The notes below the pieces were generated by a model. The model was not told the DNA's origin. It was given only the letters and a program-made list of their open reading frames with translations, and made no database searches. The position numbers were made by a program, and so were the translations under genes. This document shows, piece after piece, positions 3,277 through 32,246 of a stretch of 38,109 nucleotides of DNA (positions are counted from its first letter, which is position 1; every line of letters begins with the position of its first letter). Where the stretch lies: the IMG/VR virus record IMGVR_UViG_3300006874_000040, positions 1 through 38,109 of that record; one strand, written 5' to 3'. This DNA is from a virus.

Positions 3277-3699
3277 TTAATAACCCTCAGGAAGAGTTAA
3301 TAACTCTCTATTTTTAAGGTGTTGTTCTTGTATATCTTCTTTTGATTGACCGTGATACTCAACACCTATATGTTCGCGGATCATAATATCTTTTACACTA
3401 GTATATCTATCGTTCGCGTGGTCGAAGACAATAAACTCACCAAGGACACGACCGAATTTCCCAGAGCGATCCTTTTGTGTTCGTAATACGCAATCAGTTC
3501 CAAGTGCGTTTTTAAGGAATGCGCTCGCGTATAGTCCGTAACGTTTTTCTGTTTTATTTCTGGTACGGCTTTCGGGAGTGTCGATTCCGTATAACCGTAC
3601 ACGCTCGTTACGTAGCCAGATTCCAAACCCGAGATCGATATCGACATCTACTGTATCTCCGTCAACTACTTTTACTATTTTACATTTATATTCATACAT
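3277..3699 (-). CDS. Staphylococcal-nuclease-like (SNase/thermonuclease) protein
   Basis: A 140-aa protein with the whole SNase (OB-fold, Ca-dependent) catalytic set: VVDGDT at 11-16 with the metal-ligand Asp, RVRLYGIDTPES at 33-44 giving R35, D40, T41 and E43, and FGRVLGEF at 83-90 giving R84 as the counterpart of SNase R87. No signal peptide is seen, so it should act in the cytoplasm of the infected cell, on DNA or RNA. It overlaps the end of gp16 by 8 bases and sits between the two terminase subunits, so it is co-expressed with late packaging genes. A role in degrading host nucleic acid or in packaging is inference. The family call is secure, the substrate is not. Confidence 0.9.
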   Translation of the reverse strand: MYEYKCKIVKVVDGDTVDVDIDLGFGIWLRNERVRLYGIDTPESRTRNKTEKRYGLYASAFLKNALGTDCVLRTQKDRSGKFGRVLGEFIVFDHANDRYTSVKDIMIREHIGVEYHGQSKEDIQEQHLKNRELLTLPEGY

Positions 3700-5764: not shown

Positions 5765-6508
5765 TTAACCTATCATGTCATGAACTGGCAAGCTGTAACT
5801 CGATATCATTTCGTCTTCTAGCTTACGAATCTCCTCCATAGATTCTTCCCATATTTTTTGACCGTTAAAGGTCAGGCCGCCTGGCATCTGAAGGCCTTCA
5901 AACTTTTTAAGATTTTCACCCCATTGACGTTTAAATAAAGCTGTAGTATATCTGAGTAACCACCGATCAGAATACATATCTGTATTAGCATCTGGATCTA
6001 TAACCTGATAAGAGTCTAAGATAATATAAGAATCAACCGGTATTTTATCCGTCCAACTAGTATCGATATAAACTCTGTTAGTATGTCTATTATAACGTAT
6101 AGGTTGCTTACCAACAAAAGTTTCTTCCAACATATTGATATGAGTCATTGCCATATGATATGGTACAACTGACGATTGTAAAAGATCATAAAGATCATTC
6201 AAATGTATCTGATATCTCACGTTAAATAAATTATTAACTGAATAAGTACCACCTAAAGTAAAGCAACCAGTAACACCGTAAATAGAATCAGGTACTGTTA
6301 AATAACCGTTTGATATATCAGCTGCTGTAGCTTGATGCTTATAAAAAACTCTTTCTGTGCCATCAAAATGATAGTCTCTATAATATTCTATTGCTTCATC
6401 TATTCTATCTTCTAACTGCTCATCGTCAGCATTTATATCGATAACAGGAGCTCCTAAATTACGAAGACAATATGATTTTAATTCTTCTCTTGTTGCTGGA
6501 AGTGCCAT
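5765..6508 (-). CDS. 13: Neck protein gp13
   Basis: Head-completion/neck protein that binds the portal vertex after packaging. It has 247 aa against 309 in T4, so it is a shorter form. N-terminal helix bundle features, TREELKSYCLRNLGAP and DRIDEAIEYYRDYHFDG, are diagnostic of the gp13 family, and YTTALFKRQWGENLKKFEG (about 189-207) is the conserved C-terminal helix. First gene of the neck-packaging-sheath block (13-14-15-16-nuclease-17-18). A GATAAATA late promoter octamer is about 40 bases upstream on the same strand. Confidence 0.92.
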   Translation of the reverse strand: MALPATREELKSYCLRNLGAPVIDINADDEQLEDRIDEAIEYYRDYHFDGTERVFYKHQATAADISNGYLTVPDSIYGVTGCFTLGGTYSVNNLFNVRYQIHLNDLYDLLQSSVVPYHMAMTHINMLEETFVGKQPIRYNRHTNRVYIDTSWTDKIPVDSYIILDSYQVIDPDANTDMYSDRWLLRYTTALFKRQWGENLKKFEGLQMPGGLTFNGQKIWEESMEEIRKLEDEMISSYSLPVHDMIG

Positions 6509-6567: not shown

Positions 6568-7221
6568 ATGTTTAAAAAACCTTATATTGAAATAGTCTCC
6601 CCTAAACAATTTTGGGCTGATAATCTAGACGAAATTATTGTGCCTTGTATTAAAAATACTCCAAAAGAATATAAAGAAATAAAGCCTTGGCATGGATTAA
6701 ATGTTAAGCAGCGAATAGAACGACTATTTGAATCTCAAACACAAGCAATGGATAAGACCATAAAACAATGTGATGGCATTATTAAGTTATGGCAAAAAAG
6801 CTTTTTATTAAAATTTCCCTGTGACACTATTATTGATATAAAGAAAGATACAGGTTGGAGATACAGTACATCAAATAGTATTTTTAACATAGGCGGTCAC
6901 AGTAAACAGCAGTATGGTAAAATGATGCCTGATACATGGACGGTTAAATTTACATATAATTTATTTTTAAATAATAATATTGATATATTACCAATGTCAC
7001 CAATATATCATAAAAAACAGCCTTATGAAGTTTTGCCTGGGGTTATATTTCAGCGCCACCGCTCACCTTCAATATTAAATATTATAGCAGCGTTTCCAAA
7101 TACAACAGAGTCTTATCTCTTTAAAAAAGGAGACCCCTTATGTATATTATACACAGGGGCCCCAGTAGTATTAAGATCTAAATTTGATTCGACTGCAGAA
7201 CTAATAATGCCTACATTTTAA
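6568..7221 (+). CDS. Conserved hypothetical protein, reversed inside the late operon
   Basis: A 217-aa protein of unrecognised function. The frame is open further upstream to 6472, but the ATG at 6568 has a Shine-Dalgarno (CTGGAG, about 7 bases upstream) and avoids a long overlap with gp13. It has no signal peptide or membrane helix and is mixed alpha/beta, rich in Ile, Lys and Asn. The C-terminal third carries LPMSPIY, a Gly-Val-Ile-Phe strand and KKGDPLCILYTGAP, loosely reminiscent of DUF6065-type proteins, but this is a weak impression. It lies divergently from gp13 and converges with the DUF4376 gene with a 4-base overlap. It is the only plus-strand gene among 31 kb of minus-strand genes, and low G+C suggests late acquisition with the halogenase cassette. 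Confidence 0.75.
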   Translation: MFKKPYIEIVSPKQFWADNLDEIIVPCIKNTPKEYKEIKPWHGLNVKQRIERLFESQTQAMDKTIKQCDGIIKLWQKSFLLKFPCDTIIDIKKDTGWRYSTSNSIFNIGGHSKQQYGKMMPDTWTVKFTYNLFLNNNIDILPMSPIYHKKQPYEVLPGVIFQRHRSPSILNIIAAFPNTTESYLFKKGDPLCILYTGAPVVLRSKFDSTAELIMPTF

Positions 7222-7841
7222 GCGAAACCAGGAGTATTCCAGTTAGTAAGTAAAGCAATATCGGTGTTAGCATCTACTTTAGCTTTATGATACGACGATG
7301 TCGGCCAACCTGAATCAATTGCATTATTATAGTTGGTAACTAATGTTGTAAGATCCGCAGCTGCGTCAATAATATCATTAATAGCTTTTTCTCGTGAAAA
7401 GCATCCTTGGACGTGAGATAATACTTGATTTTTACGTGATGTAGCATTAGTTAAATTTAAATCTACCCAACCGGTATAATCTTTAAATGATACTACACTT
7501 TCTGTATTGTCTTGCAACCATAAAAAAGCACCATTAATACTTGCTTGAGACATTCTATCTGAAGCTATAATTATATTGTTATTTCCACTATCGATAACAC
7601 CTCCTACTTCATATTTGTATCTCAAGGCGGCGAGTTTATCTTTAAGATTTTTTTTAACAGATGCAAGATCAGTACTGCCCCATGTAGATGTATCCGGATC
7701 ATATGTTAGATTAACATTATTAAGAAACGGTACCATAGAGCTTGGCACACTTATAGCTTTATCTCCATAAGTACCTGAGATATCATCTTCATGTATCTCT
7801 ATTACTTGATTACTATCATTTATTAGAACCCATAAGCTCAT
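7218..7841 (-). CDS. DUF4376-like tail-fibre-associated protein
   Basis: A 207-aa protein. The N-terminal 60 residues are a small beta domain (MSLWVLINDSNQVIEIHE). From about residue 64 to 180 it has the layout of DUF4376: a basic helix (KKNLKDKLAALRYKYE), G-V-I-D and I-I-A-S-D-R strands, a Trp-containing segment, then helices around VLSHVQGCFSREKAI. DUF4376 proteins are usually encoded beside tail fibres in myoviruses and are thought to be fibre tip or fibre-assembly components. Here it is the last gene of the fibre/halogenase block and overlaps the previous gene by 4 bases (ATGA). Function beyond tail-fibre association is inference. Confidence 0.65.
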   Translation of the reverse strand: MSLWVLINDSNQVIEIHEDDISGTYGDKAISVPSSMVPFLNNVNLTYDPDTSTWGSTDLASVKKNLKDKLAALRYKYEVGGVIDSGNNNIIIASDRMSQASINGAFLWLQDNTESVVSFKDYTGWVDLNLTNATSRKNQVLSHVQGCFSREKAINDIIDAAADLTTLVTNYNNAIDSGWPTSSYHKAKVDANTDIALLTNWNTPGFA

Positions 7842-8587
7842 TCTTCTATCTCCGATACAGTAGAATTTTTGTACATTGTCATCATATATTTAGCATCTCT
7901 AAAACTAATAGATCTATTTAAAATTGTCTCCATTATATACCTAGGTGCCATTCTATATGTGCTAATAATTTTTGTTATATCTTCTTTGCTCTTTAACATA
8001 GACTTCAAGCGTATCTGAGCTGTAAGAAATTTTTGTTGATACTCAAAAATCTCAGTACAATAATTATTATATTCTTGTTCTGGTAGCGCTGTTCTTACTT
8101 GTTGATTTATTGATATATTATTTTTAGTTAAAAAATAATTTCTATATATTAACTCATCCATCCATTTGTTAATATTTTTATAAACTTGATCTCTTAAATA
8201 GTTTAAATCAACACTTATCCCGTTATTATCAAATTTATAGTTATCATCTACTAACTCAAAATTAATATCATCGTCAAAAATATTTATTTTTTCACTCCAC
8301 CCATCCTTAGGTAAATAGAGCATTTTTCGATCTTGTAAATCTGATTTATCTAAAAACTCCCCACAATAAAATATAAAAGCACTAAACTCCCAATCTTGAA
8401 ATTCTAAATTTTTGTCAGATTTAAAAATCTCTTCTTCATTATAAATTATTTTCTGTAAAATATGATATTTTGGATTAAAGTTAATAACACCTAAACACCA
8501 CCTAAAACCATCAATTAACTTATCGTGCGTCAACTGGTCGACATGTTCATTTTCATTATTATAAAAAAAGAAAGTAAAATTAGCCAT
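7838..8587 (-). CDS. Hypothetical protein of the halogenase cassette
   Basis: A 249-aa protein I do not recognise. It is mostly helical, very rich in Asn, Lys, Ile, Tyr and Phe, and has no transmembrane segment, signal peptide or obvious cofactor motif. Residues about 125-215 look like long amphipathic helices. The central acidic stretch (INIFDDDINFELVDDN) separates the two halves. It overlaps the halogenase end by 8 bases and the DUF4376 gene by 4 bases, so the three genes are almost certainly translated from one message. Base composition is as AT-rich as the halogenase and unlike the flanking structural genes. A partner or substrate-presenting protein for the halogenase is possible but speculative. 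Confidence 0.7.
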   Translation of the reverse strand: MANFTFFFYNNENEHVDQLTHDKLIDGFRWCLGVINFNPKYHILQKIIYNEEEIFKSDKNLEFQDWEFSAFIFYCGEFLDKSDLQDRKMLYLPKDGWSEKINIFDDDINFELVDDNYKFDNNGISVDLNYLRDQVYKNINKWMDELIYRNYFLTKNNISINQQVRTALPEQEYNNYCTEIFEYQQKFLTAQIRLKSMLKSKEDITKIISTYRMAPRYIMETILNRSISFRDAKYMMTMYKNSTVSEIEE

Positions 8588-10016
8588 TTAAACACTCATT
8601 ATTTGTAATGTTAAATTTTTCACTTAAGTTATATAACTCTCTGTTTAGCTCATCTATTTTTTGATCTTCATCTATTAGCATAGTATTGTTAAATTTTAAG
8701 CTTTCAAACATAATAAACCAGCTGTGAGGTGCAAAAATAATACCGTCATCCATATCCCAATCGTGTATTCCATTATCCACGTAGCTTTTAATTTTATAAT
8801 TTAATGTATCGGTAATTTTTATATTATTCTTAATATGGTTCCAAAAGATAGAGTCTCGTTCATTATTTAAATAATGTAATGCTATAAAATCATATGTCTC
8901 TTCAAATTTTTGTGAAATCCTATTATTTAATATTGCAATATCGGAACTTGTATAATAACCTTTTCTAATCCGACCGGTTAAATGCTCTATAACATCTGTA
9001 GTTAAATGAATACTAGAAGACTCTAAAGGCTCAGCAAACCCGTTTGAAACACCAATACTGATAACATTAGTTTTCCATGTATTTTTATTATAGACTGGTT
9101 TAAATTTAATATGATTAAAATCAGTATTCTTATCTTCTAATCTATCTTCACCCCAATGATTTACTAAAAATTTTTCTGCTTCTTTTTTTGACGTTAAATT
9201 AGAATTATACAGTAACCCCGAGCCTATTCTATCCGCTACTGGTATTTTAAATATCCACCCTAAATCACAAGCTTGTGATATAGTATATGGCGTCATCTCT
9301 TTATTAATGTTATTATATTTAAAACGTCTTGTAACAGCAGCATTACAAAATAACATATCACTTTTATCGATCCACTCATCACCTACAATATTTTTTGAAA
9401 TAGTATTGCGAAAACCAGTACAGTCTATGAAAATAGAAGCTTCTATGTTTTCACCAGTATCTAATTCTATTGAATTAATATAATTATTTTCTACATTAAC
9501 TTTTTCTACATTATTTAAATAGTAGTTAAGTTTATTTACTGTTTTTTTCTTGAGATAATCAGCTAAAAGATTAGCGTCAAAATGATATGATCTATTTGAT
9601 GTAATATAATTATTTTTTACACAGTGTGTGTAATAAGGTATAATTTTTTCTTTAAATACTTCACTGTTGTGTTTATTTACTGAATAATAATCACCTAAAT
9701 GTAGACCATTTTTTAAAGTAGTATTAGCAAACGGGTGCCATATATCTTTACCTTCATTTACCCAATCTTTGAACAAAATACCACATTTAAACGTAGCTTT
9801 TGTCTCTTTCATAAATTCTTCTTCAGAAACTACACCACATCTTTCTAAAAAATCTACAAAGCTAATAAGTGCTGCTTCACCAACACCTAATTTAGGTATA
9901 ATTGGTGATTCAACAAGAGTAATATTATATTGAGGGAGTTGATTAGTTAAGTAGGCAGCAGTAAGCCAACCAGCACTACCACCACCTACTATACATATAT
10001 TTTTCACATAATGCAT
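8580..10016 (-). CDS. Flavin-dependent (tryptophan-type) halogenase
   Basis: A 478-aa FADH2-dependent halogenase of the PrnA/RebH superfamily, which makes hypohalous acid at the flavin and passes it to a lysine. Seen: FAD-binding GGGSAGW at 11-17, VESPIIPKLGVGEA at 35-48, catalytic lysine candidate K77 in TFKCGI (aligned with PrnA K79 in AFKAAI), SYHFDANLLADYLK at 143-156, FIDCTGFR at 196-203, WIFKIP at 254-259 in place of the usual WxWxIP, and EPLESSSI at 329-336 with E332 aligned to PrnA E346. Length is slightly under PrnA (538), with a shorter C-terminus. A related enzyme from cyanophage Syn10 (VirX1) has been characterised as an iodinating halogenase. No flavin reductase is encoded nearby, so reduced flavin would come from the host. 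It follows the glycine-rich fibre by about 20 bases, with an A-rich leader and no clear Shine-Dalgarno. Confidence 0.92.
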   Translation of the reverse strand: MHYVKNICIVGGGSAGWLTAAYLTNQLPQYNITLVESPIIPKLGVGEAALISFVDFLERCGVVSEEEFMKETKATFKCGILFKDWVNEGKDIWHPFANTTLKNGLHLGDYYSVNKHNSEVFKEKIIPYYTHCVKNNYITSNRSYHFDANLLADYLKKKTVNKLNYYLNNVEKVNVENNYINSIELDTGENIEASIFIDCTGFRNTISKNIVGDEWIDKSDMLFCNAAVTRRFKYNNINKEMTPYTISQACDLGWIFKIPVADRIGSGLLYNSNLTSKKEAEKFLVNHWGEDRLEDKNTDFNHIKFKPVYNKNTWKTNVISIGVSNGFAEPLESSSIHLTTDVIEHLTGRIRKGYYTSSDIAILNNRISQKFEETYDFIALHYLNNERDSIFWNHIKNNIKITDTLNYKIKSYVDNGIHDWDMDDGIIFAPHSWFIMFESLKFNNTMLIDEDQKIDELNRELYNLSEKFNITNNECLNG

Positions 10017-10035: not shown

Positions 10036-11820
10036 TTATTCACCTGTAGCCCAGTCAAAGCGAACATATCCAGAGGCCGCTTGAGCTCCAGCACCAAACC
10101 AGCCTTGAGTGTTACCACCGCCACCACCATAAGAGCCGCCGCCACCGCCGCCAGAGTGGGATGGTGTTGGATCACTGAAAGAGCCTGGACCGCCGCTACC
10201 GCCACCAGGACCGCCACCGGCAATACCTGGGGCGAATGTGCGACCACCGCCACCATTAAACCCTCGACCCTGTGCGTTTGAACCATAAACTACGTTGCCT
10301 GAACCACCTGAGCCAGGGCTACCAGCGACTCCAGGATATGACTGCGACCCGTTGCCGCCGCCACCGCCGCCCCACCAGCCTTGACCTTGGCCGCCAGGAG
10401 CGCTAGTCATAACGCCTGTCCAATTATATCCACCGCCGCCACCACCGGCATAGCCCTGGCCGCCTGCATTTGGTCTATATGAAGGATCTCCATCACCTGT
10501 TCCACCTTTACCACCACTTTGATTGAGTTTTATCTGCCAGTTAGGATTAACTGAAGTGGTGCCTCCAGCTGTGAACGCATAATACTGTTGCGCTGGATTG
10601 TCTGTAGCTTGTCCTCCGCTAGCTGTAATAGTTTCGGATCCATATGTAATAGAAGATTGCCCACCGGTTGCGTTACCACTAGTACTCAAACTTCCATTTT
10701 TATTTCCCACTGTTACACTAATAGATTGACCAGCTGTTACATCTCTTGCAGCTCTCACACCACCGGCGCCACCGCCACCGTGAGATGGTTGACCGTTACC
10801 ACCACCACCGCCGCCAGCGCCTACAACAGTTGCGATTATACGGTTTGTGTTAGGTATTGTAAAAGTATATGACCCTGGAGTTGCATAATAAACCGAAACG
10901 CCGTTATTTGCGACTGTGCCTTGTGAATAAGCTTGACCATCAGATCCAACTGCTGCTAGAGTTGTGAATGATGTACCAGAACTATAATCTGATATATAAG
11001 TAGCTGATCTATATCTAGCACGCCAGTAAAAAGTTCTTGAAGCATCACCTTGAGCTCCAGTAATGACGCCTGCTGGTATTCCAAATGATGTTAATGCTGT
11101 TGTGTTAGCAGTAACGTTAATTCTGGTGTTTGCAAAATTGCTTACAACCGATACCTGCCAGTCTGTAGATACATGAGGCTCTGCATGTCCGATTGTAGTG
11201 TATGCACTCGTTGTAAGTGTTTGAGTAAATGATGCCCCTGTATCACCGTCTGCTGGACTAGAGTTTGTAGGTGTAGAGATAATCGGATTAATAATAGTAG
11301 TCGTAGCTACCGTAATAGTATTAGATAAGTTTCCAGTGCCGTCTATAGCATATGCTCTAACTCTAACATCTTGACCAGCGGTATTTGAAAATGGATGTAC
11401 ATCAATTGATTCATAATGTCGGTTAATTGTATCGTCACCACCAACAGAAGGGCTGGTATAGTTAGCTAACGCAACATTAGCTACTTGTACTTCTGCACCG
11501 TCTTCAGTTACATTTTTGATCAGGAAAATAATATTTTCTGCTCTAACACCGGTAAGCAATGAGTCTGTTGTAACTTCATAATCAATAGTGTTTGAGGAAA
11601 ATTGAGTTGGGTTAGCACTAGTGTTGCTAAGCGCTGTAGGAAAGATTTTCATTACGGTTTTACCACCCGCACCAGCAACCCATTCGCCTGATGAAGCGTC
11701 ATAAACTAGCGCCTGTCTATCACTCGGCGTTCCAGTAATATTAACACCCGATATTAAATTAATTCCAGCTAGCTTTCCGCTGTCATTAATAACAGTGTTT
11801 GAACCGACCTTATATGCCAT
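10036..11820 (-). CDS. Glycine-rich tail fibre / adhesin
   Basis: A 594-aa structural protein probably at the tip of a tail fibre. Residues 1-50 are a short N-terminal module (MAYKVGSNTVINDSGKLAG) of the kind that anchors marine phage fibres. Two beta-sandwich, FN3-like parts follow (about 55-180 and 180-290, the second with FYWRARYRS). From about 310 a Gly_rich_2-type region begins with GSYTFTIPNTNRIIATVVGAGGGG. The rest alternates glycine runs with short beta strands to the end (SGYVRFDWATGE), resembling the polyglycine helix bundles of T2/S16 gp38 adhesins. Trp and Tyr sit inside the glycine runs (465, 467, 482, 483, 564, 574). The alternative-frame ORFs here are by-products of GGN codons. 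It is 3 bases after the S74 fibre gene and directly before the halogenase. Confidence 0.8.
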   Translation of the reverse strand: MAYKVGSNTVINDSGKLAGINLISGVNITGTPSDRQALVYDASSGEWVAGAGGKTVMKIFPTALSNTSANPTQFSSNTIDYEVTTDSLLTGVRAENIIFLIKNVTEDGAEVQVANVALANYTSPSVGGDDTINRHYESIDVHPFSNTAGQDVRVRAYAIDGTGNLSNTITVATTTIINPIISTPTNSSPADGDTGASFTQTLTTSAYTTIGHAEPHVSTDWQVSVVSNFANTRINVTANTTALTSFGIPAGVITGAQGDASRTFYWRARYRSATYISDYSSGTSFTTLAAVGSDGQAYSQGTVANNGVSVYYATPGSYTFTIPNTNRIIATVVGAGGGGGGNGQPSHGGGGAGGVRAARDVTAGQSISVTVGNKNGSLSTSGNATGGQSSITYGSETITASGGQATDNPAQQYYAFTAGGTTSVNPNWQIKLNQSGGKGGTGDGDPSYRPNAGGQGYAGGGGGGYNWTGVMTSAPGGQGQGWWGGGGGGNGSQSYPGVAGSPGSGGSGNVVYGSNAQGRGFNGGGGRTFAPGIAGGGPGGGSGGPGSFSDPTPSHSGGGGGGSYGGGGGNTQGWFGAGAQAASGYVRFDWATGE

Positions 11821-11823
11821 TAT

Positions 11824-13566
11824 TTACCCCTGGTTGTTATCTAATCTGTCTGAAAGCTCTTTTATGGCTTCTACTAAAACAGATACAATTACACTATAAT
11901 TTACAGTTTTGTTTCCATTAACATCAGTATTTATAACTTCTGGAAGTATTGGTTCTACTTGTTGTGCTGTAAAACCTACTGCTTCGTTACCGTTTTCTTT
12001 CCAATTAAATCTAACGCCTTCTAACTGTTTAACTATTTCAAGTGCGTTTTCTAATGGACGAATATTCTCTTTTAATCTTTCATCTGAAGTTGATGTATAG
12101 TTAGCAGCTGAAACATCCCCTGTTACATTAAGGTTAACAGTAATATCTGTATTACCTGTTATTGCAACACCACCATCTTTTGTTCTAAACTTTTCTGAGG
12201 TGTTGTAATAAGCTTTAACATCTGTACCTACAGTAAATTTATTCGCAACAGTTATAGTATTAGCTGTAACGTCTAATCCGCGAATATTTGCTGCTCTAAA
12301 ATGGCCATATTCAAAAGATGAATCACCTGTATCTACCGTACCTGTGCTTTCCGGGTCATATCGGTTATAAATTTTCCACGTGTCATCAGTAGCATCTCTA
12401 AAGATACCCGAGTGAGTATAACCTGTACCATCATTGTAATGACCTTGGATACCATAATCTACTTCAACATTATTTACAGTACCGTCCCAAACATCATTTA
12501 ATGTATGACCTGTAGTTGATTGAAAGAGAATTGATATACCGTTGGAGAGAGCTTGTTCCCCTCCAGTTATACTTACACCAGTTGCTTCTGTAGTAGAGAA
12601 GTTATCTACAGACCAACTAAATGTGTCTGGGGTACCAGCTGCATCAATTTTAACATAAAAAGTTTTAGCACCTGTACCAGTATAATAATTTTTAAAAGTT
12701 AAATCATTCAATCCGGTACCAGTAAATTGAGCATTAGCAATATCGTCGCCAGCGCCCAGATATATGAATGTATTACCAACGTTTAGCCCAGAAGTAGAAG
12801 TAGTCGTCTGTGATCCTAAAATAGTAAGATCGCCGCCAACAGTGAGATTATCTTCTATGTATGCATTATTTCTAACCACAAAGCTTGGTACAGAGTGGTT
12901 TTGCATTTCAACAACTATTTCACCATTAGACGAATCATTGCTAACAACATACCCAATACACATTGGATAGTTCGGAAAAAATGGTGGAACAGTTACTAGT
13001 GTACCAGGAGTATTAGCTGAAACAAAACAACGACTACCAGCTGTTAAGTGAGTTGTATCAAATGGAAATTCAGGAGTACCAGCTACAACACCAGATATAG
13101 TTACAAAACCGTATGTGTTATTAGGAATTAACTTTGATGCTAGCCCAGAAGTATTATACAATGCTTCAGATGATGCATCTGCCTTTTGAGCTGTTGGTGT
13201 AGTAGCATGTAAGCCAGTTAGAGTGACTGGAGCTCCTTTTTCAATATCAACACCAGAATTATTGTAGATGCGCAAATATTCGTTCTGGCCAAGCTCTATT
13301 GGTAAATCATCTACATCTGTATAAAAGTTTAATGTTTTATGTACTTGATCGTAAAAGAGTAAAGCTTCTGCATTTCCAGTAAACGATTGGTGACCTACAT
13401 TAGCGTTCAACTTTAAACCGTCAGGAAAAAGAACACCGCTTATACCGGTATTACCAGTCGATGAAACACCATCATTCATCATCTCATTGATGCGTGTGCG
13501 CTGCGTAGCAAACGTATCTGTTAACTCAACGTTTGCTATAAGAGTGCCAGAATTTCGTAAAGCCAT
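11824..13566 (-). CDS. Tail fibre protein with C-terminal peptidase S74 chaperone
   Basis: A 580-aa fibre or spike protein. The N-terminal part (MALRNSGTLIANVELTD) and following beta modules are typical of marine phage appendage proteins and include a segment near 75-200 that resembles capsid/fibre decoration domains. Residues about 440-490 form the trimer-entry strands. The C-terminal 90 residues are an intramolecular chaperone of the S74 family: SDERLKENI with S494 and K499 as the five-residue-spaced Ser/Lys dyad seen in endosialidase-type domains, then GVRFNWKENG, AVGFTAQQVEPILPEVI and a C-terminal coiled coil. The family trimerises, folds the fibre, then cleaves itself off in front of the Ser. 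A late promoter octamer lies about 35 bases upstream. Confidence 0.88.
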   Translation of the reverse strand: MALRNSGTLIANVELTDTFATQRTRINEMMNDGVSSTGNTGISGVLFPDGLKLNANVGHQSFTGNAEALLFYDQVHKTLNFYTDVDDLPIELGQNEYLRIYNNSGVDIEKGAPVTLTGLHATTPTAQKADASSEALYNTSGLASKLIPNNTYGFVTISGVVAGTPEFPFDTTHLTAGSRCFVSANTPGTLVTVPPFFPNYPMCIGYVVSNDSSNGEIVVEMQNHSVPSFVVRNNAYIEDNLTVGGDLTILGSQTTTSTSGLNVGNTFIYLGAGDDIANAQFTGTGLNDLTFKNYYTGTGAKTFYVKIDAAGTPDTFSWSVDNFSTTEATGVSITGGEQALSNGISILFQSTTGHTLNDVWDGTVNNVEVDYGIQGHYNDGTGYTHSGIFRDATDDTWKIYNRYDPESTGTVDTGDSSFEYGHFRAANIRGLDVTANTITVANKFTVGTDVKAYYNTSEKFRTKDGGVAITGNTDITVNLNVTGDVSAANYTSTSDERLKENIRPLENALEIVKQLEGVRFNWKENGNEAVGFTAQQVEPILPEVINTDVNGNKTVNYSVIVSVLVEAIKELSDRLDNNQG

Positions 13567-31808: not shown

Positions 31809-32246
31809 ATGACGTATAAAGGTAAATTTAGACCGAAGTTTCCTAGTAAATATTTAGGCGATCCTACGAACATTATCTATCGAAGTTCTTGGGAGCGTCA
31901 ATGTATGATATATTTTGATAATAATCCTAATATAGTTAACTGGGGCTCGGAAGAAATAGTTATACCATACAAGTCTCCATTAGATGGAAGGTATCACAGA
32001 TATTTTGTAGATTTCATAGTCAAAGCAAAAAAGACTGATGGTACTATCGGTGTTACTTTAGTAGAAGTAAAACCCTTTAAACAAACTCAGCCGCCAATAG
32101 TTCAAAAACGAAAAACACGTCGCTATCTTAATGAGGTTACTACTTATTTAGTTAACGAAGCTAAATGGAAAGCCACACAAGAATATTGCAAAGATAAAAG
32201 ATGGGATTTTCAAATCATAACGGAAAAAGAACTTGGCCGAAAGTAA
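31809..32246 (+). CDS. 4: Head completion protein gp4 (PD-(D/E)XK nuclease fold)
   Basis: Head completion protein needed to make filled heads competent for tail joining. It has 145 aa (T4 150). It matches T4 gp4 throughout: MTYKGKFRPKFPSKYLGDP, YRSSWERQCMIYF (T4 YRSNWEKFFFEW), YHRYFVDFIV, LVEVKPFKQTQPP and RYLNEVTTYLVNEAKWKATQ. The PD-(D/E)XK residues are intact: E29, D68 and E86-x-K88. T4 gp4 has been reported to be a nuclease required for morphogenesis, so this copy should be active too. First gene of the plus-strand operon, divergent from gp48. Confidence 0.93.
   Translation: MTYKGKFRPKFPSKYLGDPTNIIYRSSWERQCMIYFDNNPNIVNWGSEEIVIPYKSPLDGRYHRYFVDFIVKAKKTDGTIGVTLVEVKPFKQTQPPIVQKRKTRRYLNEVTTYLVNEAKWKATQEYCKDKRWDFQIITEKELGRK

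Follow-up and report, generated by a model that had tools for sequence, protein, structure and literature searches.

Introduction

Flavin-dependent halogenases of the PF04820 family have already been documented in phages (PMC3037559, PMC2984593, PMC10452541; VirX1 is reviewed in PMC8407142). The bacterial enzymes BrvH and Xcc4156 have no Trp4, the motif by which free tryptophan is held (PMC8269204), and do not act on free tryptophan; their authors proposed from the structures that the substrate may be a peptide or something larger (PMC5945002, PMC7336383). Here, we describe a halogenase gene from a marine T4-like phage and consider the fibre proteins encoded beside it as possible substrates of the enzyme. 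Since the discovery of prnA in cyanophages, no native substrate has, to our knowledge, been assigned to a phage halogenase. The observations on the cassette presented below narrow this question to one focused claim, which is that the halogen would be placed on fibre proteins. If true, halogenation would represent a previously unrecognised phage route to tailoring host recognition, as well as a source of enzymes that halogenate intact proteins. In a literature search of incomplete coverage, no paper was found that connects halogenases of phages with tail fibres or with the exchange of a fibre cassette, and nothing relevant on DUF6065 or DUF6445.

The locus and its genes

The window, meaning the whole 38-kb stretch of DNA analysed, is a virus fragment with 36% GC, and its source is a T4-like marine phage. 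Its minus strand carries gp53, gp5, gp25, gp6, gp7, gp9/10, gp8, a DUF4815 structural protein and an S74 tail fibre, as well as a glycine-rich fibre, the halogenase, a 249-aa orphan, a DUF4376 protein, gp13, gp14, gp15, gp16, a staphylococcal-nuclease homologue and gp17. As the earlier note had described, the halogenase gene lies within the late structural block, which is T4-like, with fibres and then gp13-17 around it. Megablast of the first 25 kb of the window against phage records gave no match; one IMG/VR contig matches the window over 9.6 kb with 99.99% identity. A further gene, with a TnsA-like endonuclease N-terminal domain, was observed at 31809-32246 (+) amid baseplate and tail genes (PF08722, 4.6e-23). 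The staphylococcal-nuclease homologue is at 3277-3699 (-), between gp16 and gp17, and the nucleotide homology to relatives breaks around it. The genes surrounding the halogenase are as follows.

5765..6508 (-): gp13 neck protein, a conserved boundary of the swapped cassette
6568..7221 (+): DUF6065/phrog_7084-type protein ("HAP"), with a predicted dUTPase-like fold, on the strand opposite to the halogenase
7218..7841 (-): DUF4376 protein, phrog_10508 "tail fiber protein", 207 aa
7838..8587 (-): 249-aa orphan protein, its start overlapping the halogenase stop
8580..10016 (-): flavin-dependent halogenase, 478 aa, putatively of the open-site (non-free-Trp) type
10036..11820 (-): glycine-rich tail fibre/adhesin candidate, 594 aa, PF21722, upstream of the halogenase
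11824..13566 (-): tail fibre with Peptidase_S74 chaperone domain, 580 aa
13812..19412 (-): DUF4815 structural protein, 1866 aa, with about 30% identity in relatives that share a gp8 of about 80% identity
19426..20955 (-): gp8 baseplate wedge, the conserved boundary on the other side of the swapped cassette

These genes are tightly packed. A gap of 19 bp separates the end of the glycine-rich fibre from the start of the halogenase, the 249-aa gene shares 8 nt with the end of the halogenase gene and 4 nt with the DUF4376 gene, so that the halogenase and the fibre genes on both sides look like one transcription unit. The earlier note had further proposed late co-expression with the fibres, which the promoter scan did not bear out. 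The T4-like late-promoter motif TATAAATA was found 4 times against 7.85 expected, fewer than by chance, and we therefore infer the timing of halogenase expression.

The 249-aa gene has no homologue in the phage collection, and its sole counterpart among the viral contigs comes from the same virus, on a contig that is nearly identical; lacking homologues outside the same virus, it was ruled out as a conserved halogenase partner. Its comparison by BLASTP with the downstream genes of phages Sf-FP1 and Syn10 was also negative. In both of these phages, the HAP family lies immediately 3' of the halogenase. The model of HAP matches dUTPases (Z 10.1), and HAP was rejected as the missing flavin reductase, as its best model matches are dUTPases with no flavin reductase among them. 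The position of the dUTPase motif-3 Asp appears to be non-Asp in the window protein (LPGVIFQ), and because this residue is apparently missing, the window HAP is probably not an active dUTPase, judging by sequence and model. A profile comparison of HAP with SapC was negative. HAP is related to another halogenase-adjacent family, "c25" (95.8%, E 7.9e-9), and one or other of the two is found at most five genes from the halogenase in 19 of the 84 viral halogenase loci considered below.

The halogenase and its predicted structure

The open reading frame at 8580-10016 (-) starts with ATG, contains no internal stop and encodes 478 aa. It matches PF04820 with E 2.7e-94 (317 bits against a cutoff of 21), residues 6-440 being aligned to positions 1-442 of the 458 in the profile, and phrog_2928 "tryptophan halogenase" with E=5.4e-104; its PDB matches include PrnA (E=3.7e-64) and VirX1 (E=7.9e-48). 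The complete halogenase, the FAD site and the pair of catalytic candidates that had been read from the letters alone are thus all upheld, the pair by its alignment with PrnA and its retention among viral homologues. The motifs are located as follows.

9969..9986 (-): FAD-binding GxGxxG, here GGGSAG, residues 11-16
9786..9788 (-): candidate catalytic Lys77, aligned with PrnA K79; Lys in 123 of 124 aligned viral homologues, a gap in the other one
9240..9257 (-): WIFKIP, residues 254-259, a variant of WxWxIP
9021..9023 (-): candidate catalytic Glu332, aligned with PrnA E346, in FAEPLESSS; Glu in 122 of 124 aligned viral homologues

Two motifs deviate from the family pattern. WIFKIP differs from WxWxIP by one conservative change, the Phe being found in 14 of 124 viral homologues, and in FxxPxxSxG a Ser takes the place of the Gly, as it does in 25 of the 124. 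The WxWxIP motif is missing from some active halogenases (PMC8407142). A pattern search found Trp4, by which free tryptophan is gripped, neither in the window enzyme nor in any other viral sequence tested; the same pattern was present in one bacterial homologue, which served as positive control.

A tree of 193 homologues places the window enzyme in a clade of 47 sequences, all viral, with support 1.0, and a recent capture from the host was ruled out because of this placement. Leaving the same virus aside, its best viral match is about 40% identical. Membership of a defence system was also considered and rejected, PADLOC giving the halogenase no assignment. No flavin reductase is present among the window proteins scanned, in agreement with the earlier note, but this carries little weight because the record is a 38-kb fragment.

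The AlphaFold model of the enzyme has a pLDDT of 88.6 and a pTM of 0.89. Its closest folds are the Pseudoalteromonas L11 halogenase and Xcc4156, tied at Z 46.8, with AbeH and SttH within 1 Z unit, followed by BrvH (Z 44.8), PrnA (44.2), VirX1 (38.3) and MibH (38.2). The superposition on Xcc4156 covers 461 residues at 2.3 A, but as Xcc4156 is tied with several Trp halogenases, fold similarity alone does not discriminate the class. The window enzyme is intact and probably an active halogenase, its halogenating activity being expected from the family, and its fold and catalytic residues shown by sequence and model. On the same footing, it may belong to the open-active-site class (BrvH/Xcc4156-like), an assignment made tentatively and jointly with the cassette and fibre-substrate reading set out below.

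An exchangeable cassette between gp8 and gp13

With gp13 used as bait, 80 loci were recovered, including phages whose gp13 is 94-95% identical to that of the window. In nearly all close relatives, nucleotide homology of 78-83% ends at the start codon of gp13 or a few bases from it (window 6487-6508), and gp14 is kept at 90-92% in the relatives with a gp13 of 94-95%. In the records that reach the far side, homology resumes at gp8, at 79-80% in two of them (L166 and L167) and 60% in a third (L168). Between these boundaries, the three relatives have a DUF4815 protein only about 30% identical and an S74 fibre 34-44% identical to those of the window, and the window's glycine-rich fibre, halogenase and 249-aa gene are all absent. 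The slot is filled in L166 by another glycine-rich protein and a weak DUF4376 relative, with neither 2OG nor HAP, in L167 by a glycine-rich protein and a 2OG-Fe(II) oxygenase, and in L168 by a glycine-rich protein, HAP and 2OG. PF04820 was not found in ten of the close relatives' records, which are mostly fragments. A more distant phage (L101, gp13 85%) has in this slot a halogenase that differs from that of the window, at 31% identity. The halogenase of the window therefore sits in an exchangeable tail-fibre/adhesin cassette between gp8 and gp13.

The contents of this slot were also counted in 79 gp13-centred loci picked without regard to halogenases. Tailoring-type genes (halogenase, 2OG, DUF6445, HAP, ferrochelatase-like) at most five genes from gp13 accounted for 55 of the 235 genes upstream and for none of the 328 downstream, a comparison whose p-value is not to be read literally, since many loci are near-duplicates.

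Halogenase neighbourhoods in other viruses and in bacteria

Within five genes of the halogenase in 84 viral loci, a 2OG oxygenase is found in 53, a glycine-rich protein in 25, DUF6445 in 21 and HAP in 17, and 2OG genes make up 31% of the immediate neighbours as against about 6% at a distance of twelve genes or more. These fractions are descriptive, because the loci were chosen by similarity to a small seed alignment, the genes were called by a simple script, and "glycine-rich" is a composition threshold. The arrangement of fibre, halogenase and 2OG is seen in the cultured phages Sf-FP1, Syn10, S-WAM1 and S-SSM7. However, the link between halogenase and fibre is not universal, since the halogenases of S-PM2 and Syn1 lie among tRNAs and metabolic genes, and that of Campylobacter phage CP21 near a DNA ligase, all outside fibre clusters.

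Other arrangements were noted as well. Four viral contigs (L009, L011, L015, L017) carry four to five halogenase paralogues and several 2OG genes, and on the opposite strand three glycine-rich proteins in succession, each about 350-380 aa long. The slot before gp13 in S-SSM7 (L254) contains heptose-type kinases, an isomerase, carbamoyltransferases, a cysteine dioxygenase, a halogenase and 2OG genes.

Eighty bacterial halogenase loci were examined, each neighbour family being confirmed on one representative. A cluster of genes of about 1000 aa, the representative of which is a TonB-dependent receptor, occurs in 48 of them, a SapC-type gene in 22 and a Cupin_8 gene in 19. Arrays combining a TonB-dependent receptor, halogenase, SapC, Cupin_8 and a second halogenase came up repeatedly in these bacterial genomes (L172-L251), for the most part in proteobacteria. 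The bacterial order of surface protein, halogenase and oxygenase-like protein resembles the phage one, and this analogy may be taken as a lead; LacI-type regulators are found near the bacterial loci, and a nutrient-uptake locus would fit too.

Proposed role and alternatives

The reading that we favour, tentatively and at somewhat less than an even chance, is that the halogenase may be a functional FADH2-dependent enzyme that belongs to the adhesin cassette and tailors fibre proteins at their aromatic residues. We infer the step to a fibre substrate from the packing, the cassette exchange, the open site and the recurring 2OG neighbours. A flavin reductase of the host would supply reduced FAD, and FADH2, O2 and halide would yield hypohalous acid (HOX), which would pass through the tunnel to K77/E332, leading to electrophilic substitution on an electron-rich aromatic group held in the open pocket. 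The most likely substrate would be a Trp or Tyr exposed on one of the cassette's own fibre proteins, for which the glycine-rich fibre, its gene 19 bp upstream, is the best candidate; the modification would take place late in infection. The halogenase, alongside the 2OG-Fe(II) oxygenases of the same slot in relatives, would then be one of several alternative adhesin-tailoring enzymes, by which receptor binding might be changed or the tip protected.

The earlier note had suggested modification of a virion component, and this part of its proposal has been strengthened, because the gene is both tightly packed and exchanged with the fibres. The residue composition is mixed in this respect. More Trp would be expected in glycine-rich proteins near halogenases, but it is not enriched there (p=0.19); Tyr is higher (p=0.005), a value obtained on non-independent sequences with two residues tested. 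The pairing of glycine-rich protein and halogenase in just 25 of the 84 viral loci also counts against a fibre substrate. With Trp not enriched and the Tyr result drawn from non-independent sequences, the fibre substrate keeps the tentative standing given above, and a small-molecule substrate, although unlikely, has to be taken seriously.

According to this first alternative, the protein is an auxiliary metabolic enzyme whose target is a small molecule of the host (indole, phenol, pigment or signal), halogenated as infection ends so as to alter or detoxify metabolism or to make an antimicrobial. VirX1 and BrvH do take small aromatics in vitro (PMC8407142, PMC5945002), although such promiscuity is uninformative on the native substrate, and the prnA of cyanophages is usually counted among the auxiliary genes, with antibiotic protection having been suggested for it (PMC2984593, PMC10452541). 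The Syn1 and S-PM2 genes, placed among tRNAs and metabolic genes, would also suit a metabolic role, whereas the window gene is embedded in, and exchanged with, fibre genes, and has no biosynthetic genes nearby.

It is improbable that the enzyme is in practice not a halogenase, but a flavin monooxygenase or maturase oxidising protein-bound Trp in the manner of LodB/GoxB. The second Trp of WxWxIP is thought to prevent monooxygenation, and the window enzyme has Phe at this position and Ser for the Gly of FxxPxxSxG. However, the enzyme retains the Lys/Glu pair needed for halogenation and matches halogenases over its whole chain (Z 41-47), and the weak NCBIfam matches to LodB (25.6 bits) and GoxB (18.2 bits) compare with cutoffs of 400, the far-lower LodB match probably reflecting a shared FAD domain.

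Equally slim is the chance that the gene is a hitchhiker, gathered as cargo by a hotspot upstream of gp13 and functionally untied to the fibres. Residence of a gene in a hotspot need not mean action on its neighbours, and the slot contents vary widely among close relatives, but the cargo is non-random, with 2OG, HAP, halogenase and ferrochelatase-like genes turning up repeatedly and, among the loci tested, on the fibre side of gp13 only. Least probable of all is the modification of a sugar or glycan precursor, or of a glycosylated fibre, within a virion-glycan pathway, for even though the S-SSM7 slot before gp13 combines heptose-type kinases, isomerase, carbamoyltransferases and 2OG oxygenases with a halogenase, and carbamoyltransferases and PfkB-type kinases recur near viral halogenases, the family acts on electron-rich aromatics and not on plain sugars, and the window is without sugar genes.

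Returning to the fibre substrate, a broader picture can be drawn, which we regard as doubtful in its full extent. Marine T4-like phages might possess swappable adhesin cassettes, each with a fibre protein and its own tailoring enzymes (halogenase, 2OG-Fe(II)/JmjC oxygenases, DUF6065-like partners), in which halogenated or hydroxylated tip residues would tune receptor binding. The bacterial TonB-receptor/halogenase/SapC/Cupin_8 loci would then maybe be the counterpart acting on a bacterial surface protein.

Comparison with known systems

Xcc4156 (6Y1W) and BrvH (6FRL) share with the window enzyme the whole fold, the Lys/Glu pair and the lack of Trp4, but they are bacterial, only 28 and 27% identical, and have WxWxIP where the window enzyme has WIFKIP. 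The free-tryptophan halogenases PrnA and RebH belong to the same family with the same catalytic residues, and differ in the Trp4 motif that the window enzyme lacks. MibH, the lanthipeptide Trp halogenase (5UAO), has the same fold (Z 38.2) and is a precedent for Trp halogenation inside a polypeptide, although it is 20% identical and the window has no visible lanthipeptide genes. The most similar bacterial halogenases found stand beside TonB-dependent receptors with SapC and Cupin_8, and not beside fibres.

Among phage enzymes, VirX1, the iodinase of cyanophage Syn10 (6QGM), is of the same family and also phage-encoded, but is more distant (Z 38.3, 27%), and neither by sequence nor by structure is it the closest relative of the window enzyme. 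Syn10 itself has two tandem halogenases between glycine-rich fibre genes and 2OG genes. The halogenase of Pelagibacter phage HTVC008M, likewise a T4-like phage, is about 34% identical; its neighbour is a phytanoyl-CoA dioxygenase, and its place, in the gp16-gp17 region, is across gp13-16 from that of the window halogenase, with no fibre gene directly adjoining. The window halogenase is a new and divergent member of the documented phage halogenases, which include those of cyanophages, HTVC008M and VirX1.
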